From: a virus
Direction: 5' to 3' (one strand)
IMG/VR virus record: IMGVR_UViG_3300017917_000952
Coordinates: 1-64,000 of that record
Length of the DNA: 64,000 bases
Each line of letters begins with the position of its first letter. Positions within the stretch are counted from its first letter, which is position 1. The translations under genes were made by a program, and so were the position numbers. The notes under the pieces were generated by a model, which made no database searches, was not told the origin of the DNA, and worked only from the letters and a program-made list of their open reading frames with translations. Positions 14 through 61,456 of the stretch are shown one piece after another.

Positions 14-40
14 AATAGGCCCTTCGGGGCCTATTTTTTT
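14..40 (+). terminator. Rho-independent terminator with UUCG tetraloop
   Basis: A perfect 9-bp stem (aataggccc at 14-22 and gggcctatt at 27-35) closes a TTCG tetraloop and runs into a T tract ending at 40. It should end transcription of a gene lying left of the window and separate it from the operon that starts near 92. Confidence 0.9.
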
Positions 41-91
41 GGTTAAAATAATTTCAATAGTGCCATCTCCTTCTGTTTTCATGTGTTAAAT

Positions 92-1477
92 ATGCACATG
101 GCAAACTTAGGAAATTTAATCAAGCTCAATCGCAACCAATCGAAGGTCGCTATTATTGACGAAGATGCTCGCGTAACCTATAGACAATTGCATAATATGT
201 CTAACTATGCCGCATTTCATCTCAAATCAAAAGGTATTGCACCCGGTGACAGAGTAGCCATTAAAGGTGTTAATACCATAGGCTATGTAGCGGCATATTT
301 AGGAATTTTAAAACTAGGAGCCGTAGCGGTTCTCATAAATGTAAAACTTCCACAATCGCAGGTTGAGTTTATTTTAAAAGACAGCAATGTTAAATTTTTA
401 TGGGAAGATCCAAAAATCCCTAGCGATGTGTTTGTTGAATTTACTCCACACGAAGCTCAGGACAGTGACCCGGCTATTGTAATGTATACATCGGGTTCTA
501 CAAGCCAACCCAAAGGAGTCATTCTTCCGCATAGCCACAAATGGATTATTGAAAAGAAATCAAATTATCCGGCGGCTGTTCATAGGAGAGCGATTGTTGC
601 CGCACCATTATATCATATGAATGGCCTAAGCAATACCGAAACTACACTAAGCGGCCACGGTACTCTTATTCTTTTAAAAAGATTTGACCCGATACAATTC
701 TTAAAAAGAATAGCCTACCACCGAGTAAATTCTATTACATCTGTTCCTACGATGTTGGCATTGATACTTCAACATCAAGATGTAATGAAAAAATTAGATC
801 TAAAATGTGTTACACATATTGGAATGGCTTCTGCACCTGTTAGCAGACATTTATTTGAATCTCTAAAGGCTGCATTTCCAAAAGCAGTAATCAACAATGC
901 TTATGGAATAACTGAAGTTAGTCCGGGAATGTTTGGAAGGCATCCGACTCTACCCACGCCCGATATGAGTGTTGGATATCCAATACCTGGAATTGAATAT
1001 AGGCTAGTAGACGGAATTCTACAGGTAAAGAGTCCATCTATGTTCTTAAAATATAATAACCTAGCAACAAAAAACATAACCGAAGATGGGTTTTTTATCA
1101 CAAATGATTTGTTCAAAATAGACGAAAACGGGTTTTACTTTTTCTTAGGCCGCGCCGATGACATGTTTGTTAGCGGCGGGAATAATGTATACCCCCGTCA
1201 ATTAGAGTCAGTATTAGAAGAACACCCGTTAGTCAAACAAGCGGCAGTCATTGGCCTAGAAGATGATATTAAGGGGATGAAACCGTACGCATTTGTGGTA
1301 TCTACTGCCGGCGAGGACGAACTAAAAAGACATGTATTAGAATCGTTGCCGCCGAGTCATTGTCCTAGAAAAATTTGGTCGGTTATGACGATGCCACTAA
1401 CCAGCGTAAACAAAATAGATAAAAATGCACTAAAGAATCAAGCAAAAGAGTTATTAAATGTTGTTCAACAGAATTGA
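92..1477 (+). CDS. Adenylate-forming acid-CoA/acyl ligase (AMP-binding)
   Basis: Activates a carboxylic acid as acyl-AMP and normally transfers it to CoA or a carrier protein. The P-loop YTSGSTSQPKGVILPH lies near residues 132-147, NAYGITE follows mid-protein, GRADDMFVSGGNNVYP marks the hinge, and a C-terminal lysine near 441 fits the catalytic A10 lysine, though the usual GK is NK. At about 461 residues it is slightly short for the family but complete. The frame opens with GTG at 83; ATG at 92 or 98 is more likely, and no strong ribosome site decides it. It is the first gene of a coupled operon with an SDR and a BKACE enzyme, which suggests activation of an acid released or used there. The substrate is unknown. 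Confidence 0.88.
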   Translation: MHMANLGNLIKLNRNQSKVAIIDEDARVTYRQLHNMSNYAAFHLKSKGIAPGDRVAIKGVNTIGYVAAYLGILKLGAVAVLINVKLPQSQVEFILKDSNVKFLWEDPKIPSDVFVEFTPHEAQDSDPAIVMYTSGSTSQPKGVILPHSHKWIIEKKSNYPAAVHRRAIVAAPLYHMNGLSNTETTLSGHGTLILLKRFDPIQFLKRIAYHRVNSITSVPTMLALILQHQDVMKKLDLKCVTHIGMASAPVSRHLFESLKAAFPKAVINNAYGITEVSPGMFGRHPTLPTPDMSVGYPIPGIEYRLVDGILQVKSPSMFLKYNNLATKNITEDGFFITNDLFKIDENGFYFFLGRADDMFVSGGNNVYPRQLESVLEEHPLVKQAAVIGLEDDIKGMKPYAFVVSTAGEDELKRHVLESLPPSHCPRKIWSVMTMPLTSVNKIDKNALKNQAKELLNVVQQN

Positions 1478-2195
1478 GAATCTTAACGGTCAGGTAGCCG
1501 TAATTACCGGAGCCAACGGCGGTGTCGGGTTTGCTGTTGCAGAAAGACTAGCAAAGTCGGGTGCTCAGATTATCGGAATAGTTAGACGCAACGTAGAAGA
1601 AATGCAGGCAAGGTTAGATCAACTAGGGCCAGGTCATAGAGCCCTATTAGCGGATGTAACTAGCAGCGAACAATTAATATCGGCGGCGGCCCAGATCACA
1701 CAGTGCGATATACTTATTAATAATGCCGGCGCTTCTACTCCTATCGATCATAAAAATTTAACCTCGCTGACGGACGAAATTTTTGAAAACGTAGTAAAGG
1801 TTAATCTAAACGGCGTATTTTACACTACTAAGGCATTTTTACCTCTCCTACGAAAGAGTCAGAATGCACTGGTTGTTAATATAAGTTCGGCTAGTAGTAT
1901 ACGAACAGGCGGCAGCAATGTTGCCTATGCAGCCGCAAAAGCAGGGGTTGACTCATTGACTAGAAATTTAGCAAAGGCCCTTGCTCCAATTAGAGTAGTA
2001 AGTTTAAATCCTACACTTATAAAAACTAATTTTACACAAATGCCAGACTCTTATTACCATAACGCAGGTCTAGGAACTCCATTAAAACGAGTAGTTACTG
2101 TAGAAGATGTTGCATCAACTGTAGAGGCACTGGCAACTACAGTGAGATTTGTAACCGGCAACAACATTGTCATTGACGGAGGAAGAACACTATGA
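1458..2195 (+). CDS. Short-chain dehydrogenase/reductase (SDR)
   Basis: NAD(P)-dependent oxidoreductase of the classical SDR family, 245 residues as usual. The cofactor motif TGANGGVG is at 17-24, NNAG at 88-91, and the catalytic set Asn116, Ser144, Tyr157 and Lys161 is complete (YAAAK). It overlaps the ligase by 20 nt and the BKACE gene by an ATGA, so translation is coupled. Next to BKACE the natural guess is oxidation of a 3-hydroxy acid to the 3-keto acid that BKACE cleaves. A FabG-like reductive role is the alternative. Confidence 0.9.
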   Translation: MLFNRIENLNGQVAVITGANGGVGFAVAERLAKSGAQIIGIVRRNVEEMQARLDQLGPGHRALLADVTSSEQLISAAAQITQCDILINNAGASTPIDHKNLTSLTDEIFENVVKVNLNGVFYTTKAFLPLLRKSQNALVVNISSASSIRTGGSNVAYAAAKAGVDSLTRNLAKALAPIRVVSLNPTLIKTNFTQMPDSYYHNAGLGTPLKRVVTVEDVASTVEALATTVRFVTGNNIVIDGGRTL

Positions 2196-3064
2196 CTACA
2201 ATTATAACCTGTGCTATAACAGGAGCGGTCACTAGTAGAGATCAAACTCCGTATCTTCCAGTGACTCCTGAAGAGATTGCAATTAGCGCACTTGAAGCAG
2301 CAGAAGCCGGCGCGGCAGTAGCGCACATACATGTTCGAGATCCCGAAACAGGAAAACCGAGTATCAATGTAGAGTACTACAGAGATACAGTTGATAGAAT
2401 TCGTAAACAAAATAAAGACCTTTTGATTAACTTAACGACTGGGCCTGGCGCATTTTATTTGCCAAGTTTTGGTGTTAACCTAGCACAAGGTGCTCCAGGA
2501 ACTTTACTACTAGGCGCCGCAAAACGTGTAGAGCATATTCAGTTAATTAAACCCGATATCTGTAGTTTAGATTTTAATACCATGCATCAGGCCGGAGACG
2601 GTATCAGAATAAACCATAAACGTGTTACTAGAGAAATGCTAAGGTTAGTTCAAGAAGCAGGTACGAAACCAGAGTTAGAGATCTTTGATAGCGGAGACCT
2701 TCGCATAGCACAAGAGTTTGTTGCAGAAGGATTGGTAAAAGGTAAACCATTTTGGCAATTTGCCATGGGCGTTAAATATGGCTGGGGCGCAAGCACCAAT
2801 GCACTACAATATGCTTACAGAGAACTAACACCGGGATCGTTGTGGAGTGCCTTTGGCATAGGAAAAGAACAGATGCCATTTGTTGCACAGACAATGTTGT
2901 TAGGTGGGCATGTTAGGGTAGGCATGGAAGATAATATCTACACCAGTAAGGGAGTGTTAGCAAAAACTAATGCAGAATTGGTTAGTATGGCCGTTGACAT
3001 TATCAGACTATTAGGAGGCAAGGTTGCATCCTATCAAGAAGCAAGGGAAATTTTATTACAATGA
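2192..3064 (+). CDS. Beta-keto acid cleavage enzyme (BKACE, DUF849)
   Basis: BKACE enzymes condense a 3-keto acid with acetyl-CoA and release acetoacetate plus a new acyl-CoA, as in lysine fermentation and carnitine breakdown. The N-terminus ITCAITGAVTSRDQTPYLPV is typical of the family. By comparison with the lysine-pathway enzyme Kce from memory, His45 and His47 (HIHVRD) and Glu246 should bind zinc, with Arg242 and Asp247 beside it in RVGMEDN. The Kce residue Glu14 is Val here, which I believe many relatives share. At 290 residues it is full length. ATGA overlaps join it to the SDR and to the next gene. Confidence 0.88.
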   Translation: MTTIITCAITGAVTSRDQTPYLPVTPEEIAISALEAAEAGAAVAHIHVRDPETGKPSINVEYYRDTVDRIRKQNKDLLINLTTGPGAFYLPSFGVNLAQGAPGTLLLGAAKRVEHIQLIKPDICSLDFNTMHQAGDGIRINHKRVTREMLRLVQEAGTKPELEIFDSGDLRIAQEFVAEGLVKGKPFWQFAMGVKYGWGASTNALQYAYRELTPGSLWSAFGIGKEQMPFVAQTMLLGGHVRVGMEDNIYTSKGVLAKTNAELVSMAVDIIRLLGGKVASYQEAREILLQ

Positions 3065-3843
3065 CACAAGAAAGATTAGATACTAGACAGTCCTATTTCT
3101 ACAGGGATCATACCGGGATACGAAGAAGATACGGAATATACATGCCTGCTATTGATAGATTCCTGCATGTGTCAGAACAAGATTTATGGATGAGTCTCGA
3201 AACTGCTGAGATTCTAAGTTCCAAAGTACAAACTATGCTATATGTGCTGCCCCCTGGTTACATAAAAGTTCCCGAGTATACCGAACTTATTAATAATCAA
3301 AACTGTCTCAATTGGGGCATCTATGACAAGTCAAAATTAAAGATAGGTTCCGGCAGTGCGCTAGGTGCCAGACAGACTCCTATTATAGGTATGCTTTATC
3401 CTGATGATCGATTAGAAGAACATCAGTCTCTTCCAGAAGACTTTATCGAAGATAGTTCTATACTAATAGGTTTGAAAGACTATGCAGATTATGTATATCG
3501 AAGAGTTTTAGGAATTAGCATTGCAGTGAATTTTTATAATCCGTATTTCTCAAAGAAATTTATAGAAAAATATATCGACAATGATTGGGTAGAAAATAAA
3601 GAAAATTCAGCAGACCCTTCCTTTTCAAAAGGTATTGAATTTGAAATTAAGAAAATACTTTACCAGTGCAACTCTAAGGAAGAAGCCGAAGAAGCAATTA
3701 CTAATTTCTGGCTCGAAAATTATAGAAACGTAGGATTTATTATGGTAGGATATTATAAGGTAATCGGAGAAAGAATCCCAGAAAAACTAAGACCATACGC
3801 TTCAAATATTCACTATCTTAACCATTCAGTGTGGGTCATATAA
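3061..3843 (+). CDS. Unknown protein in the BKACE operon
   Basis: I do not recognise this 260-residue protein. It has no signal peptide or membrane segment and is rich in Tyr, Ile and charged residues; the middle part (FIEKYI, EEAEEAI) looks helical. It overlaps BKACE by an ATGA and its TAA shares one base with the next ATG (TAATG), so it is coupled on both sides and probably works with the PP-loop protein that follows. Confidence 0.75.
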   Translation: MTQERLDTRQSYFYRDHTGIRRRYGIYMPAIDRFLHVSEQDLWMSLETAEILSSKVQTMLYVLPPGYIKVPEYTELINNQNCLNWGIYDKSKLKIGSGSALGARQTPIIGMLYPDDRLEEHQSLPEDFIEDSSILIGLKDYADYVYRRVLGISIAVNFYNPYFSKKFIEKYIDNDWVENKENSADPSFSKGIEFEIKKILYQCNSKEEAEEAITNFWLENYRNVGFIMVGYYKVIGERIPEKLRPYASNIHYLNHSVWVI

Positions 3844-5102
3844 TGCTTAATATAAACGATACACTTTATTTTTCAAGCCATGTTGTGAATTGGTATACTA
3901 GAGATACTTGGGATAAGGTATACAAAAACGTCCCTCCAGACGGTCAATGGTACCTAAAGGTGTACGAAAAGGTCTTACCTAATCGATTAATAACAAGGAA
4001 TGGGGAGTGGACTACTCCGTGGCCCCAGGAACTAATTCCTAAATTTAAGATGCCCGAGTACGATCCTTACTTTAGTAAATCGTTCGAACAGGTGACAGAT
4101 GAAAACGCTCTACGGATAAGGGATAGAATTCTCCAAGGAGAAAAGTTTGCCGTCATGTATTCGGGGGGTATTGATAGTACACTAGTTCTTTCATCGTTGA
4201 TTAAAAATCTTAGCAGTGAAGAATTAGAAAATGTAACTGTAGTTTGTAGTGGAGAAAGCATTGCCGAGAACCCTGTGTTCTATAGTAAGTTCATTCACGA
4301 AAAAATGAAAACCCTAGATTCTAAACGACACAAATATGATGACCTGATTAATCTAGGTTTGACTCCTATTATTTCAGATGAAGGAGATTGTATTTTTGGA
4401 ACACTTATCGGGCTCAATATGTACAACAGTTTTGATGCCTTAGTTGATCACGTATCGGGTCCCGTAAAAGAAAATCTAAGGCTTCTAAAAGATAAAATTA
4501 GCGATCCCAGTGTTCATTACAGTACATTTAAAGACCTAATTATTAAATTTTTGGATTTACCGCATTCACCGACATTTGGTAGAATTCTGTACGACAAATA
4601 TGATCATAATATAAGAACTGCAACAGTTCCTGTTCATAGTCTCCATGATTTTTTCTGGTGGTTAATTTTCAACGTTAAATATTACAATTGTTCCGTTAGG
4701 GGTGCAATATATATCAACGATACTATAGATATCAACACAGCCGTTCACAGAATCCATAATTGGTTTAATGATGAAGATTACCAACGATGGAGTATGGCAA
4801 ACAATAACAATGGAACAAAAATTAAAAAAAGTATCCTCAGTTATAAAACGGCGGCTAAAGAATATATCTACTCCGTTGATAACAATATTTGGTACAGAAC
4901 CTTTAAGACAAAATTAGAGTCCCTGTGGAATATAAGTAACTTGCAAAATGTACAGAATATTCCGATGGAAAAAAGGCCTGTAGCAAGGATAGCAGTTAAA
5001 AAAGAAAACTGGGAATTGGTGCATCTTACTGACCCGGGGGTGGTTGAGTATTTTACTCATCATGCATCAAATTATAAAATAGATTGGACAGACATCAAAT
5101 GA
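3843..5102 (+). CDS. PP-loop ATP pyrophosphatase, asparagine synthase-like
   Basis: Contains the ATP pyrophosphatase signature SGGIDS at residues 107-112 after a beta-strand (KFAVMY), as in asparagine synthase C-domains, NAD synthase and tRNA-thiolation enzymes. These adenylate a carboxylate, amide or uridine and release pyrophosphate. There is no N-terminal glutaminase domain. The frame extends to a GTG at 3831, but ATG at 3843 makes a TAATG reinitiation junction with the upstream stop and is preferred (419 residues). It overlaps the following TctC gene by an ATGA. It is one of four PP-loop proteins in the window. The substrate is unknown. Confidence 0.8.
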   Translation: MLNINDTLYFSSHVVNWYTRDTWDKVYKNVPPDGQWYLKVYEKVLPNRLITRNGEWTTPWPQELIPKFKMPEYDPYFSKSFEQVTDENALRIRDRILQGEKFAVMYSGGIDSTLVLSSLIKNLSSEELENVTVVCSGESIAENPVFYSKFIHEKMKTLDSKRHKYDDLINLGLTPIISDEGDCIFGTLIGLNMYNSFDALVDHVSGPVKENLRLLKDKISDPSVHYSTFKDLIIKFLDLPHSPTFGRILYDKYDHNIRTATVPVHSLHDFFWWLIFNVKYYNCSVRGAIYINDTIDINTAVHRIHNWFNDEDYQRWSMANNNNGTKIKKSILSYKTAAKEYIYSVDNNIWYRTFKTKLESLWNISNLQNVQNIPMEKRPVARIAVKKENWELVHLTDPGVVEYFTHHASNYKIDWTDIK

Positions 5103-6004
5103 AAAAATTTTTAGCAACCTTATTATTAGCAACTACAGCATTTGTGGCACATGCTAAAGAAAATATTACAATTTTCTATGCATGGGGTCCAGGTGACTCT
5201 GTAGCAAACTATCATCGCACTATCGCTGCTGAAGCAAACAAAATTCAAGACAAATACAATTTTATCTTTGATACCAAGCCAGGCGCAGGTGGTGCAATCG
5301 CATCTAACCACGTACTTAATACTCCTAACAGTGTATTGGCACATAGCACAGCATTTTTTGTGCGTCCTGTAGTGTTCCCTAACGAAAGTTATGATTTAAC
5401 AAAATACAAAGAACAATATGTTCACTGCATGGCCCCAATGGCTGTGACTAGTACAAAGTATAAAACTGTAAAAGATGTACCTGCCAACGCTAGTGTAGGT
5501 ATTAGCGGCCTAGGTGTTACTACACACTTAGCAGCACTAGAACTAAAGAAACGTTATCCGGATTTAAATATCGTTCCTTTTAAATCTACCAACGATAGTA
5601 TGTTAAGTATGGTAAGCGGTCAAACTGATCTACATATTGGATTTATCAGCGAAGCAGAACAATGGAGTAAAGAAAACTCTAACAGTGATCGTAAGGTAAA
5701 TGTTTTAGGTATTACTGGATCAAAAGTTGTTAATGGTTACCAACCGTTGGTTCGTCAAGGCTTCGACGCTAGTTTTGCCGACATGAATGTTGGACATCAT
5801 CTCCTAGTACCAACAACAGTCAGCGAAGAAAAGCGCAAAGAGTTTCACGCCATTTTTGCTCGTGCAGCCCAGGCTCCTAGCGTTCGTGCTGCCTATGCAG
5901 TTGACTACTGCGAACCACAGGCTGTTACCTATGACGGTTTAGACAAGTTCTTCTTGTTCCATACAAACTATTGGAAGAAGTTAGCATCTGCGGTTAAACT
6001 ATGA
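5099..6004 (+). CDS. Secreted TctC/Bug-type solute-binding protein 1
   Basis: Periplasmic receptor of the tripartite tricarboxylate transporter type. Starting at ATG 5099 (ATGA overlap) gives 301 residues with a clear signal peptide ending VAHA near residue 19; a start at TTG 5084 would only bury it. After the signal come a TctC-like first strand, KPGAGGAIASN, and a second half with VPFKSTNDSMLSMVSGQ, matching the TctC segments PGAGG and PYKG..DLLGGQ. Known relatives bind carboxylates and hand them to a TctAB membrane unit, which is not in this window. It is coupled to a second TctC-like gene. Confidence 0.82.
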   Translation: MKKFLATLLLATTAFVAHAKENITIFYAWGPGDSVANYHRTIAAEANKIQDKYNFIFDTKPGAGGAIASNHVLNTPNSVLAHSTAFFVRPVVFPNESYDLTKYKEQYVHCMAPMAVTSTKYKTVKDVPANASVGISGLGVTTHLAALELKKRYPDLNIVPFKSTNDSMLSMVSGQTDLHIGFISEAEQWSKENSNSDRKVNVLGITGSKVVNGYQPLVRQGFDASFADMNVGHHLLVPTTVSEEKRKEFHAIFARAAQAPSVRAAYAVDYCEPQAVTYDGLDKFFLFHTNYWKKLASAVKL

Positions 6005-6894
6005 TTAAGAAATTAATTATTGGAGTTCTAGGGGCATTGGCTATTTCGGCCAATGCTGCCGAAACTATTAAGGTATACAGTCCTTACAGTGCGAGCCACA
6101 GCGGTACTCCTGCATTGTTACGAGTGTTAGACCAAGCAAACGCAAATCAAAATATCTATAAATTCGTTCCAGAATTTAAACCGGGCGGAAATCAGATCAT
6201 CGCTGTAAAAAGTGTAGATGCAAATAGCCTGGCAATTATTGCACCTGCGTTTGTTGAGAATGTAGAATCGGGTAAACTTAATGAGTCTGACTATGTTCCA
6301 GTTTATGCACTCGGTGATGCCTGCTGGGCTGTGATCACAAACGGACCTTTAGAAGGTGCTAAGGAAGTTACAGTCGGCGGGGTTGGATTTGGCAATGCTG
6401 CACACTTAACAGCACTAGCATTAGGCGAGAAGTTTAAGTTTAACGTTCGTTATATTGTTTTTAGATCTAACAACGATGCACTGGTTAACATGACTGGAAA
6501 CAACGGTGTAGAATTTGTTGTTGAAAAATACGAAAGTTACGAAGGATTAAAAACTAAAAATCCTAATCTAAGAGTTATTGCTGCTAGTTGTCCTAAGAGA
6601 TTACCCCAGGCACCAAAAGTAAAAACACTCAAGGAAATGGGAATAGAAGCACCCTATGTCTTCAACATCATTGTATCTAACAGAGAAATGCCCAGTGGTC
6701 GTAGGTTAGCAATTTCAAAAATCTTAAATGACGCTACTCTAGCACTAGGCGAAGAAGAAATTTTTAAAATCTCTGCAATGCGTCCTCCTGTGTTCGATGG
6801 TGTCACTGCTGAAGATTTTTATGTAAAATCTACAGATCTTGTCAAAAATCTTCAGAAAAAGTATAGGTCTAAGATTGAAGAATCCAAAAAGTAA
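6001..6894 (+). CDS. Secreted TctC/Bug-type solute-binding protein 2 (divergent)
   Basis: Second secreted TctC-like protein, 297 residues, with a signal peptide ending near SANA at residue 20. FKPGGNQIIAV replaces the usual KPGAGG segment and GFGNAAHLTALAL matches the mid-domain helix of the neighbour, so the two may be diverged duplicates. It begins in an ATGA overlap with the first copy and ends just before a strong terminator, so it is the last gene of the ligase-SDR-BKACE operon. The ligand is unknown. Confidence 0.72.
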   Translation: MIKKLIIGVLGALAISANAAETIKVYSPYSASHSGTPALLRVLDQANANQNIYKFVPEFKPGGNQIIAVKSVDANSLAIIAPAFVENVESGKLNESDYVPVYALGDACWAVITNGPLEGAKEVTVGGVGFGNAAHLTALALGEKFKFNVRYIVFRSNNDALVNMTGNNGVEFVVEKYESYEGLKTKNPNLRVIAASCPKRLPQAPKVKTLKEMGIEAPYVFNIIVSNREMPSGRRLAISKILNDATLALGEEEIFKISAMRPPVFDGVTAEDFYVKSTDLVKNLQKKYRSKIEESKK

Positions 6895-6902
6895 CTAAAT
6901 AT

Positions 6903-6931
6903 ATGAGCATGAAAGGTTCATGCTCATTTTT
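6903..6931 (+). terminator. Rho-independent terminator closing the BKACE operon
   Basis: A perfect 11-bp stem (6903-6913 with 6917-6927), an AGG loop and a short T run. It lies 8 nt after the second TctC stop and isolates the DctP-like gene that follows. Confidence 0.88.
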
Positions 6932-6956: not shown

Positions 6957-7904
6957 ATGACAAAAAAGCACGTAAAATGGGTTATCGCCCATGAGCCTAT
7001 TGGATTATTCCTAAAGGTAGCAGAGCGTTTTGCTAAGGAAGTAAACGAGCAGACCAACGGTATGTTCGATATCGAAGTTCTTTCTCTAAGCGATTATTCT
7101 GCAAAGTACAATGATGGTAAGAAAATTACCAAAGACGACCTAATGAAGTTAGTAGATACTGGCGCAATCGAAATGAGCCACATCTACACAACATGGTTAG
7201 CAGACTACAACAAAGATCTACACGCATTAGATCTACCTTTCTTATTCCGTGATCACGCACACGCTGACGCAGTTCTAGAAGGCGAAATCGGTGCAGAGCT
7301 TCTAGCAGGTGTTTCTAAGAACAGCAACATCAAGGCTATGAGTTTCACATATAGCGGTGGCTATCGTGTTGTTCCTGCAAACTTTGCAGCAGACACAGTA
7401 GAAGCATGGCAAGGTAAGAAAGTTCGTACCAGCCGTAGCCCAGTTGCAGTCGACACATTCAAACTGCTAGGCGCACAACCTTTTGAAGGTATTGCTTTAG
7501 AAGAAATGAATCAGGCTGCTGACCAAGGTATTATTGAAGCAGGCGAGAGCACATACGTTCGCGTATTCCCTCTAGACCAGCATAAGAGCTTCGAAGTTGT
7601 TAACGACACAGCACACAGCCTATTCTTAACAAGCATTATTGTTAACCAAGATTTCATGGCTCAGTTCAGCCAAGAAGTTCAAGAAGTTCTTGCAACAGCC
7701 GCATTCAATGCAGCACGTCAAGAGCGTCGCGAAAGTGTTGCTAACATTCCTGAAATCCTAGAACTTTGCGAAAAAGAAGGTGTTCAGGTTGTTAAGATGA
7801 GCGCAGAAGAAGAGTGCAAGTTCAAGGCAATCACAAGTCAGGTTTATGACATGTATGCCGACTATTTCACTCCCGGCTTAGTCCAGAAGATTCAGTTACA
7901 GTAA
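6957..7904 (+). CDS. DctP-family TRAP solute-binding protein without signal peptide
   Basis: Clear DctP fold: FLKVAERFAKEVNEQTNGMF near the N-terminus, DLPFLFRDHAHADAVLEGE mid-domain, GYRVVPAN and the ligand-arginine region GKKVRTSRSPVAVD, then AADQGIIEAGESTYV. Family members are exported receptors for dicarboxylates and sugar acids, but this 315-residue protein begins directly with the mature domain. An in-frame TAA two codons upstream rules out a longer, signal-bearing form. Ribosome site tggagcc is good. Its codons use more C-ending forms (AAC, GAC, ATC, TTC) than its neighbours, and it sits alone between two terminators, as expected for strong separate expression. It may be cytoplasmic or packaged. 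Confidence 0.88.
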   Translation: MTKKHVKWVIAHEPIGLFLKVAERFAKEVNEQTNGMFDIEVLSLSDYSAKYNDGKKITKDDLMKLVDTGAIEMSHIYTTWLADYNKDLHALDLPFLFRDHAHADAVLEGEIGAELLAGVSKNSNIKAMSFTYSGGYRVVPANFAADTVEAWQGKKVRTSRSPVAVDTFKLLGAQPFEGIALEEMNQAADQGIIEAGESTYVRVFPLDQHKSFEVVNDTAHSLFLTSIIVNQDFMAQFSQEVQEVLATAAFNAARQERRESVANIPEILELCEKEGVQVVKMSAEEECKFKAITSQVYDMYADYFTPGLVQKIQLQ

Positions 7905-7969: not shown

Positions 7970-8569
7970 ATGTGGATGCCTGTTGATTTTAAAGAAATTG
8001 GAAAAATAGATCCGGAAATATTAAATCCGGTTATAGAACTATTTGATACAATAAACTGGAATGATTTTTCATACAGACGTCCAGAACCTAAACTGCGTGC
8101 CGGAAAATTACTGGCTTTGCCTTACCTGTTATACAAATATGATCATCCTGTTTATACCGAAGAGCAGCAGATGATAATTAAGGCCGTGGAACCAGTAGTA
8201 GATGAGATTATTAAACTATTCCCCGGTTATGTAAAAGTTCGCGGAGAAATTGCAACATTATTACCGGGGGTTGAATTACCTTTACATACTGATATTGTTT
8301 GGTTTCATAAGTATTGTAGGCGAATACACATTCCTATAATAACTAACAAGGACTGTTACCAACAATTTGAAAATAGAACTTCTCATTTAGAGTTTGCAAA
8401 AATATACGAGATTAATAATAGAATAATGCACGGTGCTGGTAATCTCGGAAACAGCCAACGCATACACTTAATCCTTGACTTGCTCAGTGACAACATCTAT
8501 AATATAATTGATAAAAAAGTATATCAACTTATGACGGCGCTGCCAAAAAATGAAGTCAAAATTTATTAA
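7970..8569 (+). CDS. AspH-like 2-oxoglutarate/Fe(II) oxygenase-like protein 1
   Basis: A 199-residue protein with the jelly-roll pattern of aspartyl/asparaginyl beta-hydroxylases: LPLHTDI (His106, Asp108), a basic strand RRIHIPII (118-124), then INNRIMHGAGNLG with the distal metal His154, and QRIHL with Arg164 for 2-oxoglutarate. AspH enzymes hydroxylate side chains using Fe(II) and 2-oxoglutarate. ATG 7970 lies almost at the predicted late start site, so ATG 7976 is an alternative. It overlaps the dCMP deaminase gene by 20 nt. The substrate is unknown. Confidence 0.7.
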   Translation: MWMPVDFKEIGKIDPEILNPVIELFDTINWNDFSYRRPEPKLRAGKLLALPYLLYKYDHPVYTEEQQMIIKAVEPVVDEIIKLFPGYVKVRGEIATLLPGVELPLHTDIVWFHKYCRRIHIPIITNKDCYQQFENRTSHLEFAKIYEINNRIMHGAGNLGNSQRIHLILDLLSDNIYNIIDKKVYQLMTALPKNEVKIY

Positions 8570-9098
8570 CGCATATATGAATGTGGCAAAAGAGTTTGCC
8601 AATCTAAGCCATGCACGACGATTACACGTCGGTGCTATTGTAGTCAAAGACGACCGTATCATCAGCATCGGCTACAACGGTATGCCTGCCGGTTGGGATA
8701 ACGACTGTGAATACAAAGATTACTGCCTAAGCAAAGATCTCAATGGAAATTATTTTCCAGGGGCGGAAGAAGAATATCCGTTTGTAGAAGAAGAACACGG
8801 TCCATATTACGAGTATACTCGTCGGTACCGTCTTAAAACCAGACCAGAGGTATTACATGCAGAATCAAACGCTATTGCAAAACTGGCGAAGTCTAATGAC
8901 AGTGGTGATGGGGCTGACTTATTTGTTACTCACAGTCCTTGTATCGAGTGTGCCAAACTCATTTATCAGTCAGGCATTCGTCGTGTTTATTTTGGTGAAC
9001 ACTATCGCGACGATGCTGGGATTGAATTCCTCAAGAAGTCGGGCGTGGAGGTAGTACAACCCCAACTAGGTGAATCCGAGGAACCTCAGAGCAATTAA
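8550..9098 (+). CDS. dCMP deaminase
   Basis: Deaminates dCMP to dUMP to feed phage dTTP synthesis. The zinc site is HAE at residues 103-105 and PCIEC at 130-134 with Glu105 as proton shuttle; the N-terminal RRLHVGAIVV strand is typical. At 182 residues with an insert between strands 2 and 3 it matches T4 Cd-type enzymes. ATG 8550 lies inside the end of the upstream oxygenase-like gene. Its 3' end overlaps the convergent gene at 9031. Confidence 0.9.
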   Translation: MKSKFINAYMNVAKEFANLSHARRLHVGAIVVKDDRIISIGYNGMPAGWDNDCEYKDYCLSKDLNGNYFPGAEEEYPFVEEEHGPYYEYTRRYRLKTRPEVLHAESNAIAKLAKSNDSGDGADLFVTHSPCIECAKLIYQSGIRRVYFGEHYRDDAGIEFLKKSGVEVVQPQLGESEEPQSN

Positions 9099-9588
9099 TA
9101 AATGTGTGCTTCTTTGTTGTATCTACATAGTAACTAGTGCCGTCAGCGGGCATGTGCTCTATAGAATTCTGTTCCGGAAAAATCATTAAACATTGGGGAT
9201 TAGTAATCACTGGTAAATGTATCCTAGGATACGGATCAGAATGTATGCTGTAGCAGGCCCTGGGATTCATGTACATTAATCTTGTTCTAACAATCCTATA
9301 CTCACTAAGTGATTGCAACCATTGATCAACAAAACCGCCCCGTAGTTTAGGGTGAATAAATTTATACTGGGGCTCTACTATCATTCCTCCGGTTTTTCTT
9401 ATTCTGCCGGTTGACTCGTAGAACTGCTCTATGCTATCATTGTTAGGATCTTTCACCTGCAGGCCTAACTGCATAACGTTTTCTCTAAACGGAAAATTTT
9501 TGATTAGGTCGTTTATTTCGCTAACTAAGTTATAGAAATTCTCAAACTTCTTGATAGGCGTACAGATCATATCAATATTTAATAACAT
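9031..9588 (-). CDS. AspH-like oxygenase-like protein 2
   Basis: A 185-residue protein with the same core order as the other AspH-like genes here: CYSIHSDPYPRIHLPVIT (His-x-Asp followed by a basic strand), then DTTKKHTFINCSE with the distal His and a basic RIHLVGVV strand. No signal peptide. It is alone on the minus strand between plus-strand genes, and its last 68 nt are antisense to the dCMP deaminase. The start near 9588 is not fixed by a strong ribosome site; an ATG six codons in is also possible. Confidence 0.68.
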   Translation of the reverse strand: MLLNIDMICTPIKKFENFYNLVSEINDLIKNFPFRENVMQLGLQVKDPNNDSIEQFYESTGRIRKTGGMIVEPQYKFIHPKLRGGFVDQWLQSLSEYRIVRTRLMYMNPRACYSIHSDPYPRIHLPVITNPQCLMIFPEQNSIEHMPADGTSYYVDTTKKHTFINCSEVPRIHLVGVVLPPRPTS

Positions 9589-9609: not shown

Positions 9610-10536
9610 ATGAACTTAAAACCCCTAGTTGCAGCACTAGTTACTGCATTTACACTTCAAGTCGGCATTGCTAATGCAGAATTTAATCCTGTAGGTAAAC
9701 AGGTTAATGTTATCATTCCGTTTGCGCCAGGCGGCGGAGTAGATCAGACATTTAGACATCTTCAGACTTATGCTTCAAAGAAAGGCGTTAATCTTGTCGC
9801 AATTTATAAACCGGGTGCAGAAGGGCTGATCGCAATGAGCGAATTAGTTACCAAACCTGCAGACGGAATGACCGTTAGTGTTACTACAGCAGGCGTTATT
9901 GCCAATTACCGATTAAAGAATCCGTCTACAGATGTAGTTGCTATCTCTGGTATTCGAGACAGTATCATGGCCTTGGTTGTTAGTAATAAGAGCCAAATTG
10001 AAAGTCTAGACCAATTAGACAAAGATCTTAAAGAAGGTAAAAAACTAAATGTAGGATATGGTGCACCAGGGCAGCAGATGTTCTTAGAGCAGTTCTTTGA
10101 ATTAGCAAAGGCAAAGAAAGGCGTTGCCATGGTTCCTTATAAGGGCGGCGGGCCGGTTGTTACTGACCTACTAGGCGGGCATATTGATGTTGCAGCAGTA
10201 CCGTTATCAATTGTTAAGGCACATATCGATTCTGGAAAAGTAAAATTAGTAGGATTAGCCAGCAGAGCAAAGATAGAAGGTTATGATTCTACTCCGCTAA
10301 TGAAGGCCAAGTATCCAAAATGGGAAGAGTTTGATAACTTTGCAGTTGTTGCCGAAAAAGGCACAGACAAAGAAGCCATTAATTGGTGGTCTAATTTCTT
10401 AAAAGATTATATCAATGACGAATCTGTTAAGAAGGATTTTGTCAAAGACATGACTGTACCTGTCGAGTTTGGTGCAACTAACCTAGAAAAAACAATTCAG
10501 TCTAGCATGAATAGACTTAAAAAGAATGGAAATTAA
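9610..10536 (+). CDS. Secreted TctC/Bug-type solute-binding protein 3
   Basis: The most canonical of the three TctC-like proteins, 308 residues: signal peptide ending IANA near residue 23, first strand VIIPFAPGGGVDQTFR, YKPGAEGLIA, and VPYKGGGPVVTDLLGGHIDV, all hallmark TctC segments. The ribosome site aaggaa is well placed. Its last 11 nt overlap the next oxygenase gene, tying a periplasmic receptor to cytoplasmic oxygenases and a radical SAM enzyme. Bug receptors are especially numerous in Burkholderiales, which hints at the host. Confidence 0.9.
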   Translation: MNLKPLVAALVTAFTLQVGIANAEFNPVGKQVNVIIPFAPGGGVDQTFRHLQTYASKKGVNLVAIYKPGAEGLIAMSELVTKPADGMTVSVTTAGVIANYRLKNPSTDVVAISGIRDSIMALVVSNKSQIESLDQLDKDLKEGKKLNVGYGAPGQQMFLEQFFELAKAKKGVAMVPYKGGGPVVTDLLGGHIDVAAVPLSIVKAHIDSGKVKLVGLASRAKIEGYDSTPLMKAKYPKWEEFDNFAVVAEKGTDKEAINWWSNFLKDYINDESVKKDFVKDMTVPVEFGATNLEKTIQSSMNRLKKNGN

Positions 10537-13293: not shown

Positions 13294-14210
13294 GGCAGTT
13301 TGCCGTCTTTTAGATATTTAGAAAAGCACAATCTATTAGATCCTGTTCCTCGATTGTACTCTGTAAACTTATCTGTAGAAGTTGCGAAAAATACACACTT
13401 AGTCGGATTCACTCCTAACTGATCACTAAACATTTCCTGAGTATTTCTATAGGTATTATAGTTGTAATCGGGACTGTATTTTTCAATTAGTTTTTCACCA
13501 ACAGCGGCTCCTAAACGATTTACATATTTGTTTTTGTTGTAAACAAACAAAGGATCATCATTATCTAGTCGTGTTAACCTCATTCCTATTCTAAGATGTT
13601 GTACAGGAAAGTTTTTGCTTAGACTAAAAACTATTTCTTCAATACATTGATAATTAAAATCAAATTTTACATTACCGCATACACCAAAATAGCAACAGTC
13701 TACTAATACAGGAACATTTAGTTTTTCACAGACAGATAAAATATCTTCCATTAAGGGATTTTCTGCTCCGTTATCGGCGAAAGGTAAACTAAAAATTACA
13801 ACATCGTCTGCACGGATAGCATCGTCTTCGATAACTGCAACTCTATCAAAGTATGCTTTACCTGATGCAATGTGATACATGTACTCGCCTTTGAAATAAC
13901 GAAGGCGACGTTCTTTATGTTTTAGATAAAATTTATCAAATGCTTCCGTTGTTCCGTTACTGAAAGCAAAGGCATTGAAATTTTCTAGTCCTGCAATTTG
14001 ATTGTTCTTTGTTGATAAGATCCATTCTTTATATTTTCTGCAGAACCGATCGTGAACTTCAACATCATTTAAGCAACCTTCGGCAACAACAGTATTAATA
14101 ATACCTGCAACTTCTTGTTCTAGTTCTTCGTTTTTTACACAATGTACGCTACCGAAGGGTAGGCTTTTTAATTTTAACAGTGCATTCCACTGTTCTTCTT
14201 TTTGAGTCAT
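13290..14210 (-). CDS. PLP-dependent aminotransferase-like enzyme (fold type I)
   Basis: 306 residues with the signposts of class I/II aminotransferases: FAFSNGTTEAFD (phosphate-binding turn near 82-91), PVLVDCCYFGV (Asp171 for the PLP nitrogen and Tyr174), and SLSKNFPVQHLRIGMRL with the Schiff-base Lys199 and the usual RIG. At about 300 residues it is much shorter than the usual 380-400, and the small C-terminal domain is reduced. Its start shares a base with the stop of the PP-loop gene upstream (TAATG), so the two are co-translated. Confidence 0.75.
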   Translation of the reverse strand: MTQKEEQWNALLKLKSLPFGSVHCVKNEELEQEVAGIINTVVAEGCLNDVEVHDRFCRKYKEWILSTKNNQIAGLENFNAFAFSNGTTEAFDKFYLKHKERRLRYFKGEYMYHIASGKAYFDRVAVIEDDAIRADDVVIFSLPFADNGAENPLMEDILSVCEKLNVPVLVDCCYFGVCGNVKFDFNYQCIEEIVFSLSKNFPVQHLRIGMRLTRLDNDDPLFVYNKNKYVNRLGAAVGEKLIEKYSPDYNYNTYRNTQEMFSDQLGVNPTKCVFFATSTDKFTEYNRGTGSNRLCFSKYLKDGKLP

Positions 14211-15337
14211 TATTCGCTCACAAATATTTTCTTGGTAGGAATTAATCTATAACCTTTGTTCCACCACATTAGGTTAGGACGCAACTGCGACAGATGCTCT
14301 GCGGCCATATATTCGTATCTGTCTTTAAACTCTTTTAGTTCAGGGTACTGCCATAACCAGAAGTGTTTATCAGATCTATTAAGTCTAAGAGGTTTCTCTG
14401 CCTGGAATCTATCTGTCCAATTAGTATATAGAACATGGCGTAAAAACTTTTGTTGTTCTTTTTGTTTGAAGTAAAACATTTCAAGACTGTTCTTTACATC
14501 TCTTGTAAATGCTAATTCTGATAATTCTTTTTCTCTCTTGAATACTTTAATTGCTGCATTGGCCATTTCAAACGCAAGAATAGGAAATTTCGGTGTCCAG
14601 TAAAAATATTCCGTGCCGTAGATATTACCAGGATAAGGTGTTCCCATTGTAACAGCAGAGTCACAGAACCACATATAATTTTTATTGTCTTCGAAATAGG
14701 TCTTAGGTTTGTCAACACCGTATATCGATGCTACTTTCTTACCTTGCTCAGACAATTTAATTTCATTTGGACTCCATACTGCTAAAGAAGTAACTTCTAC
14801 ATCGTGCCAGTGATTAACTAGGCCAAATATTTCTTCTTGACCGATGGATGTTCTATCTTTAAACCAATCAACAATTTCAATTTTTATGTTAGGGTGTTTT
14901 TGAGCGACTTCTTCCAGGACCGGTTTGATAGCGTAGTCCCATTCACTCAAATAATTTACCGCGGTTTTTTCTTCTGTATTAGGTACGTAGATACCTCGGT
15001 CAATAACATCCGACGCCCATTTTACACAAATTTCATCTAGATGTATTCCGTTATCTAAAAATGAACGTAATACATTATAACTGTCAGCGCCGCCCGAGAA
15101 GTATAAAATAAGATAATCGTAACTGTCTCGCAACTGCTGAGCACGTTGTTTATATAGTTCATTGAGACTAAATTTACCAATCAATGATCTATCAAAATTT
15201 TGCCACACATCATCAAAAAATCTATACTGAACAGTGTTGTTTGTTTTAGTTGCATAGAGCAAAGCCTGATATTTGTTTATAAACTTTTGATCAGCGACTT
15301 CCCAATATCCTTGAGGGTAATTTTCTATAAATTGCAT
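14210..15337 (-). CDS. PP-loop ATP pyrophosphatase, asparagine synthase-like
   Basis: 375 residues with SGGADS at 81-86 after YDYLILYF. The rest fits an adenylating amidotransferase-like C-domain without a glutaminase half. A TATAAATA box on the minus strand lies 9 nt upstream. The stop overlaps the start of the PLP enzyme, so the pair may act in sequence, for example adenylation or amidation of an amino acid coupled to transamination; that is inference. The C-terminus is basic and aromatic (RPNLMWWNKGYRLIP). Confidence 0.78.
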   Translation of the reverse strand: MQFIENYPQGYWEVADQKFINKYQALLYATKTNNTVQYRFFDDVWQNFDRSLIGKFSLNELYKQRAQQLRDSYDYLILYFSGGADSYNVLRSFLDNGIHLDEICVKWASDVIDRGIYVPNTEEKTAVNYLSEWDYAIKPVLEEVAQKHPNIKIEIVDWFKDRTSIGQEEIFGLVNHWHDVEVTSLAVWSPNEIKLSEQGKKVASIYGVDKPKTYFEDNKNYMWFCDSAVTMGTPYPGNIYGTEYFYWTPKFPILAFEMANAAIKVFKREKELSELAFTRDVKNSLEMFYFKQKEQQKFLRHVLYTNWTDRFQAEKPLRLNRSDKHFWLWQYPELKEFKDRYEYMAAEHLSQLRPNLMWWNKGYRLIPTKKIFVSE

Positions 15338-16530: not shown

Positions 16531-17985
16531 ATGATACTAGGTATTAACGGTCAGAATCATGATGCAAGCATGGCCTTGGTAGATCAAGAATCTATCTTAT
16601 GGGCTGCACACGCAGAACGGTATTCTAGAACTAAAAACGATAAACTCCTTAATACTGATATGATTAAGGAAATGTACGAGTACGGTGCTCCAAAGGTTGC
16701 GGTATGGTTTGAAAAACCTTTCTCAAAGTCTATGAGAAAACTTTACAGCGGAGAACGACCCTGGTGGTGCAATCCTAAGGAAGAACTAAAGCGTGTCGGT
16801 CTAGGTCATCTAAGCCTAGAAAAAGTAGGACACCACGAAAGTCATGCAGCCGCAGGATTCTATACAAGTAAGTTTCAAGATGCGGCAATTCTTGTAGTAG
16901 ATGCAATAGGAGAATGGGACTCTGCCAGTATGTGGCACGGAACAGCCTACGGTCTTAATAAAATCTGGGATATGAAATATCCAGACAGCATGGGGTTATT
17001 CTACACAGCATTTACACAGTTCTTAGGACTGAAACCCAACGAAGAAGAATATATCTTAATGGGTATGGCTGCACTAGGCAAGCCTATAGTTGTAGAACAA
17101 ATTAAAAAAGATTTCTTTGATAGTTTTGGTCCACCGTTTATTAAATTAAAACACAATTTACATAGAGGTTGTCGTTGGTGGGAAGCACCTAAGGGCGTGA
17201 CTAATTTTGATATTGCAGCCAGTGTTCAATACATAATGGAAGAATATCTCTTAGATACCGTTGCTGCCCTAAGATCAAATGTAGCCAGTGATAATTTAGT
17301 ATTCATGGGCGGTGTTGCTCTTAACTGTGTTGCAAATAGTATCATTGCAAAACAAAAATATTTTAAAAATATTTGGGTAATGCCTAATCCTGGCGATGCA
17401 GGCAGTTCTATTGGTGCGGTTGCAGCGTTAGAAAGAAAGCACCTCGACTGGCGACATCCTTATCTAGGCACCTCTATTAATCGTGTATTAGATATAGAAG
17501 GCGTTGTTAAAGAACTTATGGCAGGTAATGTTGTTGCAGTCGCTAATGGTCGGGCAGAATTTGGGCCAAGGGCATTGGGTAATAGAAGTTTACTCTGCGA
17601 TCCTCGTGGCCCGGACGCTAAGGCCAGAATGAATAGGTTAAAGCGAAGGGAAGAATTTAGACCCTTTGCTCCTGCTATCCTAGAGGAACATGCACATTAT
17701 TATTTTGATATGGTTGTACCTACTAGTCCATACATGCAGTTTGTTATGCGGTGCAAGGATCCTAAGAATTTCCCGGGTATTTGCCACTACGACAATACCA
17801 GTAGGGTGCAGACAGTTAACCACGCAGATAATCCAAATTTTAGGGCTATTTTGGAATTATGGTACGAAAAAACCGGTTGTCCGATGCTTATGAATACTAG
17901 TCTAAATGTAAAAGGCGAGCCCTTGGTAAATAGTTTAAGCGATGCTGTACGTTGGGAAAAGTTAAATGGCGTAAAAGTATTTTGA
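16531..17985 (+). CDS. NodU/TobZ-type O-carbamoyltransferase
   Basis: Transfers a carbamoyl group from carbamoyl phosphate, through carbamoyl-AMP, to a hydroxyl or amine of an antibiotic, Nod factor or similar acceptor. The N-terminal metal site is HHESH (His101, His105) with the VVDAIGE acid near 124; FMGGVALNCVANS and GPRALGNRSLLCDPR with RREEFRPFAPAI form the C-terminal YrdC-like adenylating part. At 484 residues it is shorter than the usual 550-600 but has all blocks. It follows a microprotein under a late promoter. The acceptor is unknown; a glycan, nucleobase or small molecule are all possible. Confidence 0.9.
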   Translation: MILGINGQNHDASMALVDQESILWAAHAERYSRTKNDKLLNTDMIKEMYEYGAPKVAVWFEKPFSKSMRKLYSGERPWWCNPKEELKRVGLGHLSLEKVGHHESHAAAGFYTSKFQDAAILVVDAIGEWDSASMWHGTAYGLNKIWDMKYPDSMGLFYTAFTQFLGLKPNEEEYILMGMAALGKPIVVEQIKKDFFDSFGPPFIKLKHNLHRGCRWWEAPKGVTNFDIAASVQYIMEEYLLDTVAALRSNVASDNLVFMGGVALNCVANSIIAKQKYFKNIWVMPNPGDAGSSIGAVAALERKHLDWRHPYLGTSINRVLDIEGVVKELMAGNVVAVANGRAEFGPRALGNRSLLCDPRGPDAKARMNRLKRREEFRPFAPAILEEHAHYYFDMVVPTSPYMQFVMRCKDPKNFPGICHYDNTSRVQTVNHADNPNFRAILELWYEKTGCPMLMNTSLNVKGEPLVNSLSDAVRWEKLNGVKVF

Positions 17986-55024: not shown

Positions 55025-55780
55025 ATGAAGCATATATTTAGGTTAACTGAAAAATCAGTCCTGATCAACAGATATATTCTGTTATCAGGATTTCTCTTAT
55101 TGCTGTATTACGGAACACTAATTCACTGGCTCGTTGTTTTAGGTGTTTATCTAGTCAAGGGACTTATGGGTACTGCGGTTATTCACAGAGGACTTTCTCA
55201 CAGAGCCTTCAAAATGAATAAATTGGTTGAGAGATTGTTTGGAGGATTTTCTCTGTTAGGGACAAATTCTACTCCTATTTCATGGGTAGCAGTTCATCGA
55301 CAGCACCATAGATTTTCTGATCACCAAGGAGATTTACATAGTCCGCAAATATACCCTTATTGGGATGTTCAATTAATGAAGTTCCACGATCCTATAGATC
55401 TAACTTATGCTCCGGATTTAGTTCGTCAACCTTACTATACATGGCTTTTTAGATACCACTGGGCAATCAGTTATAGTATTGCCTTACTATTATTAATAAT
55501 TGATCCTATGCTACTTTTATGTGCGTGGCTTGCTCCAAATTTTATACAATCATATGCAGGAACTACTGTAAACGCACTTAACCATATTAATTTTGGTTAC
55601 AGAAATTTTGCTACCAAAGATAACAGCCATAACAACTGGATTACAGGAATCTTCTGTTTAGGTGAAGGATGGCATAACAATCACCACCACGACCCTGCAA
55701 ATCCAAACTTCGGAGTTAAATGGTGGGAGTTTGATTTAGGATATCAATTTGTAAAACTAATTCAACAAAAAACCGCATAG
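55025..55780 (+). CDS. Acyl-lipid/acyl-CoA fatty acid desaturase
   Basis: 251 residues. Three His boxes of delta-9-type membrane desaturases: HRGLSH at 54-59, HRQHH at 91-95 and HNNHH at 217-221, with membrane helices near 17-50 and 148-180. It introduces a cis double bond with di-iron, O2 and an electron donor. It may alter host membrane fluidity during infection; the acyl carrier, acyl ligase and PanD genes fit a lipid theme. Its 3' end is part of the terminator. Confidence 0.93.
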   Translation: MKHIFRLTEKSVLINRYILLSGFLLLLYYGTLIHWLVVLGVYLVKGLMGTAVIHRGLSHRAFKMNKLVERLFGGFSLLGTNSTPISWVAVHRQHHRFSDHQGDLHSPQIYPYWDVQLMKFHDPIDLTYAPDLVRQPYYTWLFRYHWAISYSIALLLLIIDPMLLLCAWLAPNFIQSYAGTTVNALNHINFGYRNFATKDNSHNNWITGIFCLGEGWHNNHHHDPANPNFGVKWWEFDLGYQFVKLIQQKTA

Positions 55781-60017: not shown

Positions 60018-60584
60018 ATGGCAGGATTAGTAGATTCAGTATTAGGATTACTTCGTAAAGAACCGAAGGACCCAGACGCACCAAAGCCGCCGGTGGGCAG
60101 TCGTAGCGAGCGAGAAGCAAAGATTAAAGATAAAGCAGGTCTAGTTATCAACGTCTTTGCATTATTGTTAGCCATTAACTCCTGGTATGGGGGTAAACTA
60201 TCGAGCACGGTATTAAACAATACTATTGCTGCAAACAATCAATGGTCTTGGTACCAGGCAAAGAACGTCCGAGAAGTTCTATACACAACTAGCGCCCTAG
60301 AAGCAAAGGTTCCTGAGAACAAAGCAAAGTTTGAGGCAGAAGCCGCACGTATGAATGCCGATAAGAAAGAAATCTTAGAAAAGGCTACCAAACTAGAAAA
60401 AGAACGCGACGAAGCAAAACTACGTAGCCCGTGGATTGGTTATGCTAATACTGCATATCAATTAGCGATTGTGTTACTGTCTGCGAGTATTCTTGCTGTC
60501 AGTATGCCTTTATTCTGGGGCAGTTTTGTAGTTGCTGGAATTGGCTTATTATTAAGCAGCCAAGGACTATTTCTCTGGCTTTAA
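60018..60584 (+). CDS. DUF4337-type membrane protein, holin candidate
   Basis: 188 residues. One helix near 41-58 (LVINVFALLLAINSWYGG), an Ala/Lys/Glu coiled middle (90-138) and two helices near 142-188. AINSWYGGKLSSTVLNNTIA and WSWYQAKNVREVLY match the DUF4337 family as I recall it. Placed right after the endolysin, it may form the lysis hole or control timing. Confidence 0.68.
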   Translation: MAGLVDSVLGLLRKEPKDPDAPKPPVGSRSEREAKIKDKAGLVINVFALLLAINSWYGGKLSSTVLNNTIAANNQWSWYQAKNVREVLYTTSALEAKVPENKAKFEAEAARMNADKKEILEKATKLEKERDEAKLRSPWIGYANTAYQLAIVLLSASILAVSMPLFWGSFVVAGIGLLLSSQGLFLWL

Positions 60585-61456
60585 TTTATACCAAACTGGC
60601 TTTTAATTAGTCGCACAGGAACATTCCTAGAAACTACTTCCCCTAATTTTTGTCTTCGGGGAACAATGTAGTTTAGAGCTAGGTCTGTTCCTGTTATCTT
60701 TTCGAAGCCGTCATATTTCATCCTACGTGGCATTTCTGGCCAGTACTTATGATATACAGTTAGTTTTTCGGGGCTAGTTGTTGGCCACACTGTAACAAAA
60801 TATTCAGGATCAGTTAACATAAAATTTATTAACCCTTGGCTAAAGTAGGAAGCCATAATTTCAGAATTTTGCCAATAGAAATATGGAAAGTGTTTTTGGT
60901 TATTATTCTTTAACCAATCAAGACACATAAACTCATCTATTTTAAAATTCAAACATATTTCACCGTCTACAGTAAAGAACGGCGACGGGCCGCCGCCGAG
61001 TACCGCAGTATATCCTAAAGATTCTGCAAGTTCAAAAAGATACAACTGTTGAAATCTAAAAGTTCTCCAAGTAACATAACCCTGTTCGATATATTTAGGA
61101 ATTTTGTTAATAACAAAATCTTCAAAGTCAAAGTCGATAACAATGTGTTTTAAATTCCTGTCTCGGCAAAATTTTATTGCCCAATCTACATCGTGATTGT
61201 TTGTTCCTTTTATGTGCCTTAAACTTAATGCAGTGAATTCAATATTGTTTTCTATAAATGCACGAGCAACTACTTCGCTATCGATGCCTCCGCTCATACA
61301 CAGTAATAAAGGTCTATCAGTTAGAGAACGTATTTGTTTGGCCGTTTCATATACTTCTTGTTTCCAGCCTAATAAAGGTCGAGTTACTGGCTTGAACTTA
61401 ATATCAAAAGTTCCATCAGCAGTATATGAATAATCAAAATTCACAATATCTTTCAT
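60581..61456 (-). CDS. PP-loop ATP pyrophosphatase paralogue A
   Basis: 291 residues. The PP-loop SGGIDS lies near 55-60 after RPLLLCM, followed by VVARAFIENNIEFTALSLRH. The middle AILGGGPSPFF-like segment (YTAVLGGGPSPFFT) and the C-terminal GFEKITGTDLALNYIVPRR are shared with the next gene upstream, so the pair are tandem duplicates. It has no glutaminase domain. The substrate is unknown. It is the second gene of a minus-strand pair with the late box at 62340. Confidence 0.78.
   Translation of the reverse strand: MKDIVNFDYSYTADGTFDIKFKPVTRPLLGWKQEVYETAKQIRSLTDRPLLLCMSGGIDSEVVARAFIENNIEFTALSLRHIKGTNNHDVDWAIKFCRDRNLKHIVIDFDFEDFVINKIPKYIEQGYVTWRTFRFQQLYLFELAESLGYTAVLGGGPSPFFTVDGEICLNFKIDEFMCLDWLKNNNQKHFPYFYWQNSEIMASYFSQGLINFMLTDPEYFVTVWPTTSPEKLTVYHKYWPEMPRRMKYDGFEKITGTDLALNYIVPRRQKLGEVVSRNVPVRLIKSQFGIN

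Follow-up and report, generated by a model that had tools for sequence, protein, structure and literature searches.

A recurrent two-module gene cassette of putative carboxylate metabolism in uncultured, largely T4-like phages

The viral record IMGVR_UViG_3300017917_000952 of IMG/VR (206,751 bp; G000 in what follows), of which bases 1-64,000 constitute the window analysed here, contains seven open reading frames (ORFs) on one strand (positions 83-6894) that encode an acyl- or aryl-CoA-ligase-like protein, a short-chain dehydrogenase (SDR), a beta-keto acid cleavage enzyme (BKACE), a protein of no recognised family, a PP-loop ATPase and two secreted TctC receptors. These genes and a leaderless DctP-family gene beyond them are genuine phage genes that recur in many related uncultured phages, and they comprise two joined modules: module A (ligase-SDR-BKACE) and module B (the PP-loop ATPase and DctP, frequently joined by the unknown protein and TctC). 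There is about an even chance that they form a selected, phage-specific locus of carboxylate metabolism, the net effect of which would be the uptake and activation of a carboxylate to feed phage growth. All seven genes named in the initial annotation are present and overlap end to end by 4-20 bases per junction; that they make up one operon holds as far as the run itself is concerned, but the PP-loop and DctP genes belong to a separate phage module that is far commoner than module A.

The source record is a T4-like phage, and the cassette sits on a bona fide phage genome, because the record has profile matches to the T4-type major head protein (4e-99), portal (2e-113), tail sheath (2e-217) and DNA polymerase (6e-197). 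Going by IMG sample numbers, the phage is presumably from freshwater. A T4-type head gene is likewise present in all five BKACE records of at least 126 kb, T4-type phages of 170-345 kb included. Relatives of the BKACE were located in IMG/VR at 16 loci in a first scan and at 33 in a later scan, on contigs of up to 345 kb from many metagenomes; loci were found by short peptide patterns, so that these and other locus counts are lower bounds, and most of the viral records are fragments. The gene order ligase-SDR-BKACE is kept in 15 of the 27 loci examined, mostly with 4-base overlaps, whereas one locus has the order ligase-BKACE-SDR, one has ligase-BKACE, and six retain SDR-BKACE, their ligase being missing, located elsewhere or divergent; several of the 27 are near-copies, so that the number of independent lineages is smaller (the tree described below has 23 distinct BKACE sequences). 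Thus the operon does recur in phages, which the initial annotation had left to be checked. In locus L035 and its near-copies the ligase and SDR are fused into one protein of 721 amino acids, and locus L030 retains the whole run ligase-SDR-BKACE-unknown protein-PP-loop-TctC-DctP. Among 16 BKACE records, 13 have one SDR each and the same 13 have the ligase, the remaining three being short contigs of one type. None of 50,697 named phage records contains the operon, and neither the BKACE nor the PP-loop protein was matched in them; the DctP and ligase matches listed from those records have 21-31% identity and come mostly from unannotated entries, and some of them are probably host DNA. A published phage BKACE or a cassette of this kind was not found in the literature searched, in agreement with the earlier statement that no such operon was known from a phage.

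In a phylogenetic tree of 59 BKACEs, one branch (support 100/99) splits the 23 distinct phage sequences from 36 bacterial sequences, a monophyly relative to the bacterial sample used, which consisted of plasmids and 289 genomes of one class. A one-genome-per-species collection yielded one contig that matched the phage-derived patterns (50% identity), but this single match reflects the patterns used, because other bacteria hold relatives that are up to 57% identical. Ratios of nonsynonymous to synonymous substitution are 0.03-0.13 for the BKACE, 0.07-0.41 for the SDR, 0.08-0.13 for the ligase and 0.05-0.10 for DctP, the most distant pairs being near synonymous saturation; judged from these alignments, substitution in the cassette is strongly purifying and the locus is kept by selection. 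Pairwise distances of the ligase, SDR and BKACE correlate over 13 records (Spearman 0.33-0.42, Mantel p 0.002-0.022), as expected for genes inherited together.

The enzymes of module A conserve catalytic motifs. The A3, A5 and A8 adenylation motifs and the A10 lysine are kept in all 21 aligned phage ligases. The phage SDRs retain the Y-x3-K motif, and those that were read carry an arginine directly after beta2 and no aspartate, the usual sign of NADP(H) use in classical SDRs, whereas the well-aligned bacterial SDRs encoded beside BKACE genes lack this arginine. The BKACE of the window belongs to its family by sequence and is likely to have acetyl-CoA-dependent cleavage activity; its metal-site histidine pair (H45/H47) and its Glu-Asp pair (E246/D247) are invariant in the phage alignment. 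The position of the catalytic tyrosine is occupied by phenylalanine (Phe165), as it is in 22 of 23 phage enzymes and in all 36 bacterial relatives. Characterised BKACEs are reported to have a catalytic tyrosine, and in BsfD, an enzyme of flavophos biosynthesis (PDB 9zsc, PMC12871164), phenylalanine goes with C-acetylation instead of cleavage. BsfD is the best sequence match to the phage BKACE in the PDB (274 bits), but it acts in a phosphonate pathway and no phosphonate genes were recognised around the phage cassette; Phe165 was rejected as a marker of BsfD-type chemistry because every bacterial relative examined also has phenylalanine. The published statement that all BKACEs have a catalytic tyrosine (PMC12871164) fails for this subfamily (the BKACE of the window and its bacterial relatives L058-L093).

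Among phages, module B greatly outnumbers module A. At least 383 viral stretches encode relatives of DctP, 64 of the best 80 DctP loci have a main-type PP-loop gene within 3 kb, and 15 of the 16 BKACE records have DctP and 15 have the PP-loop gene; from these counts, the PP-loop and DctP genes pair widely in phages, and certain lineages have acquired ligase-SDR-BKACE in addition. The pair is apparently undescribed. In an initial profile search, the unknown protein, the PP-loop protein and receptor 1 had no Pfam match. The PP-loop protein has an SGGIDST-type motif (SGG.DST invariant) that is kept in 14 homologues, a weak match to LarE, and a structural model (predicted local distance difference test score, pLDDT, 85) with modest matches to asparagine synthetase, LarE and NAD synthetase (E about 3e-3 to 3e-2); with both the SGGxDS loop and, by this modest match, the fold, it is predicted to be an N-type ATP pyrophosphatase. 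The unknown protein matched no family in the profile libraries, and its model is poor (pLDDT 64) and had no fold match.

The phage DctP resembles the receptors of TRAP transporters in its PF03480 fold and in Arg157. In an alignment with a solved DctP structure this residue falls on the 'GKKIR' ligand-motif arginine, and most phage copies retain it (lost in L050 and L055). The phage protein differs from TRAP receptors in having no signal peptide, no DctM partner and a PP-loop ATPase as its neighbour. In the window an in-frame stop codon lies just upstream of its start, and in all 73 distinct phage copies even the longest N-terminal extension that the reading frame allows lacks a signal-like hydrophobic stretch; because no signal peptide is possible, the protein is probably cytosolic, where it probably binds a carboxylate. 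The candidate role of an ordinary TRAP receptor was rejected for want of a leader and of DctM. In three related records DctP is split by in-frame TAA codons into adjacent ORFs of 156 and 162 codons (L041:10907-11869, L043:2685-3647, L046:10906-11868), and its persistence in this form suggests a two-chain protein. A radical-SAM-type gene family, of which one member was tested, lies near DctP and the PP-loop gene in 46 of the best 80 loci, often amid tail-fibre-like genes; at L106:1196-5113 and about 45 similar loci a radical-SAM-type gene, a gene of about 104 codons, leaderless DctP and the PP-loop gene stand in a row that resembles a modification operon.

The two receptors of the run were correctly described as secreted TctC proteins, since both have hydrophobic leaders and PF03401 matches, that of receptor 1 being weak and supplemented by its homology to receptor 2; a third such receptor is encoded further downstream. 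Receptor 1 shares 57% identity with a TctC-like protein of the phage locus L031, and receptor 2 shares 71% with its homologue in the same operon of L030. TctC is present in nine of the 16 BKACE records, with leaders wherever these were read, in related phages as in the window. A similarity search of the window's TctC proteins against plasmids, as a route to the host, gave no match. Five of 30 DctP records, representing three phage lineages, encode the permease subunit TctA: G309 (250 kb) has two copies (L191:15388-18662) and G314/G325 has TctA with TctB (L196:5688-9840 in G314), in both cases with secreted receptors and leaderless DctP, and in G326/G327 TctA lies two genes upstream of DctP. 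A T4-type head gene is present in G309, G314 and G326. These three lineages are the best support for the idea of uptake, and because of them carboxylate uptake via TctC is plausible for the present phage, although TctABC transporters as such differ from its set in including TctA. An earlier publication (PMC4164917) describes a tctA domain match on a putative SUP05 viral contig, beyond which the literature searched held nothing relevant on TctC or DctP in phages. Phage nutrient-uptake genes such as pstS (PMC6359870) likewise supply a phage-encoded receptor able to serve a host permease, but their substrate is phosphate rather than a carboxylate, and the cassette receptors are joined to an enzyme set.

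From gene content, order, recurrence, selection, motifs and leader status, we infer the substrates, the direction of flow, the coupling of the two modules on one compound and the benefit to the phage as follows. In module A, the SDR would interconvert a 3-hydroxy and a 3-keto acid, the BKACE would convert the 3-keto acid and acetyl-CoA to acetoacetate and an acyl-CoA two carbons shorter, and the ligase would form the CoA ester of a carboxylate, either the starting acid or the released acetoacetate. In module B, periplasmic TctC would capture the carboxylate and pass it to the TctAB permease of the host, or in relatives to a phage-encoded permease, and inside the cell the DctP-fold protein would bind the carboxylate and the PP-loop enzyme would adenylate it. 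The infected cell would gain acyl-CoA, acetyl-CoA and reducing power for phage growth.

Oxidation followed by cleavage is the default reading of module A by analogy, because bacterial SDR-BKACE pairs sit in catabolic operons, the diagnostic partners of which are absent from the phage operon. The oxidative deoxyribonate pathway (Price 2019, PMC6365646) resembles the phage cassette in having an SDR and a BKACE in one gene cluster and in the chemistry predicted for the cassette, since in the bacteria a free 3-hydroxy acid is oxidised and then cleaved with acetyl-CoA. Its SDR-BKACE pair, the best studied of its kind, acts in the breakdown of 2-deoxyribonate; by genetic evidence, Pseudomonas simiae, Paraburkholderia bryophila and Burkholderia phytofirmans require it for this purpose. 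The bacteria have an NAD+-linked SDR, a lactonase, major facilitator superfamily transporters and a glycerate kinase, whereas the phages have a ligase and an SDR with a cofactor motif that points to NADP(H); Pfam revealed no lactonase or glycerate kinase in the operon or its flanks, the rest of the genome not having been searched for them. The nearest bacterial BKACE genes adjoin or lie near an SDR gene; in three cases a gene for a ring-cleavage dioxygenase accompanies the pair, adjacent or close by, and some of the loci also encode TctC or TRAP receptors. The dioxygenase-SDR-BKACE operons of Caballeronia, Skermanella and Rhizobium encode an SDR beside or near a BKACE 52-57% identical to the phage enzyme, with receptors nearby in some, but unlike the phage operon they include the dioxygenase, had no related ligase found nearby, and encode an SDR without the NADP-type arginine.

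Several points weigh against net uptake and breakdown of a carboxylate. TctA and DctM permeases are encoded in none of the 16 BKACE records, G000 included; a dioxygenase, present in several of the nearest bacterial operons, is missing from that of the phage; and phenylalanine in place of the catalytic tyrosine, although shared by the bacterial relatives, counsels caution in assuming textbook BKACE cleavage. The arginine after beta2 of the phage SDRs would suit NADPH and reduction, so that flow through module A may be reductive rather than catabolic. The chief rival, itself somewhat unlikely, is a biosynthetic, reductive cassette ending in modification, in which the ligase would make an acyl-CoA, the BKACE running in reverse would combine it with acetoacetate to give a 3-keto acid and acetyl-CoA, the SDR would use NADPH to turn the keto acid into a 3-hydroxy acid, which the PP-loop enzyme would then attach through an amide bond to a nucleotide, protein or glycan. 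Besides the cofactor motif, which the bacterial partner SDRs do not share, the ligase-SDR fusion, the nearness of the PP-loop fold to amide-forming enzymes and the radical-SAM-type family in 46 loci accord with such a scheme, whereas the catabolic roles of bacterial SDR-BKACE pairs and the secreted TctC receptors, which point to intake, do not, and neither a carrier protein nor a dedicated acyltransferase was recognised beside the cassette.

It is also unlikely that the modules are independent of each other and simply lie side by side in this phage, A performing acyl-CoA chemistry and B serving another purpose. BKACE is present in only one of 20 larger DctP records, and the modules are far apart in several BKACE records (for example G002 and G004), a separation that tells against joint carboxylate metabolism as well; yet module B also occurs in 15 of the 16 BKACE records, and L030 has both modules in a single run. 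A counter-defence function, with leaderless DctP as a sponge for a carboxylate signal that the enzymes destroy, could make sense of a probably cytosolic binding protein without a permease, but is very improbable given that the secreted TctC partners do not fit, that PADLOC gave no family match of note and that no carboxylate signal of this type is known. That the cassette is a host island or a misassembly attached to a phage contig, a possibility raised in the initial annotation and favoured by the position of the operon at the extreme end of the contig, is scarcely credible and was rejected, being contradicted by recurrence at no fewer than 33 viral loci from many metagenomes and in large T4-type phages, by purifying selection and by the separate, phage-only BKACE clade.

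Table 1. Features of the cassette and its immediate surroundings in the window.
Feature	Position	Strand	Basis
Terminator-like hairpin with T-run, just 5' of the ligase gene	14..35	+	pattern scan
AMP-forming acyl/aryl-CoA-ligase-like protein (ANL family)	92..1477	+	PF00501 3e-59, PF13193 2e-15; possible GTG start 83
Classical SDR	1458..2195	+	PF13561 (adh_short_C2) 1e-42; Y-x3-K; Arg after beta2
BKACE	2192..3064	+	PF05853 1.7e-94, residues 3-288 (full-length profile match)
Unknown protein, companion of PP-loop gene in many phages	3061..3843	+	homologues upstream of PP-loop genes
PP-loop (predicted N-type ATP pyrophosphatase) protein	3843..5102	+	SGG.DST motif, modest fold match; possible GTG start 3831
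TctC-like receptor 1, signal peptide	5099..6004	+	PF03401 2.9e-5; hydrophobic leader
TctC-like receptor 2, signal peptide	6001..6894	+	PF03401 2.2e-6
11-bp hairpin, possible two-way terminator	6903..6927	.	terminator score on minus strand only
Leaderless DctP-family protein (TRAP receptor fold)	6957..7904	+	PF03480 5e-40
Third TctC receptor, signal peptide	9610..10536	+	PF03401 1.2e-21

The contig begins 82 bases 5' of the ligase gene, and any genes further upstream lie outside the record. For both receptors of the run, the starts given in Table 1 (an ATG for receptor 1) are most likely correct. The operon had been described as closed by a terminator after receptor 2, but the hairpin there scores on the minus strand only, terminator calls by pattern scan in this stretch are near chance (nine found, 7.3 expected), and the functional unit runs on to the DctP gene, which begins 62 bases past receptor 2 with the hairpin between them. 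Annotation covered part of the other genes of the window. Two aspartyl/asparaginyl hydroxylase-like proteins are encoded on opposite strands beside the operon (7970-8569 and 9031-9588), and elsewhere there are three more PP-loop-like proteins of two other families (14210-15337, 60581-61456 and 61458-62330), a Nol/NodU-like carbamoyltransferase (16531-17985; phrog_1601, 9e-98) and, by eye, a desaturase-like membrane protein (55025-55780); a related phage has a fatty acid desaturase gene (PF00487) near its BKACE gene (L030:12680-13468).

The metabolic genes of phages are mostly single enzymes of photosynthesis, phosphate and nucleotide metabolism. In the present case, selection has kept across many uncultured phages a cassette of several organic-acid enzymes and a pair of receptor and ATPase, with a viral clade of BKACE and phage-encoded permeases. 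A wider proposal, made tentatively and with rather less than even confidence, is that hundreds of largely T4-like uncultured phages share a cytosolic carboxylate-handling system of leaderless DctP and PP-loop ATPase, to which some have added TctABC and others the phage-only ligase-SDR-BKACE set, the whole amounting to a pathway that may import and activate a carboxylate for a purpose new to viruses. The leaderless DctP and PP-loop pair is open to test with purified proteins. If the uptake reading is true, viruses would govern the uptake of dissolved carboxylates by the aquatic bacteria that they infect, and infection would be linked directly to the carbon cycle.

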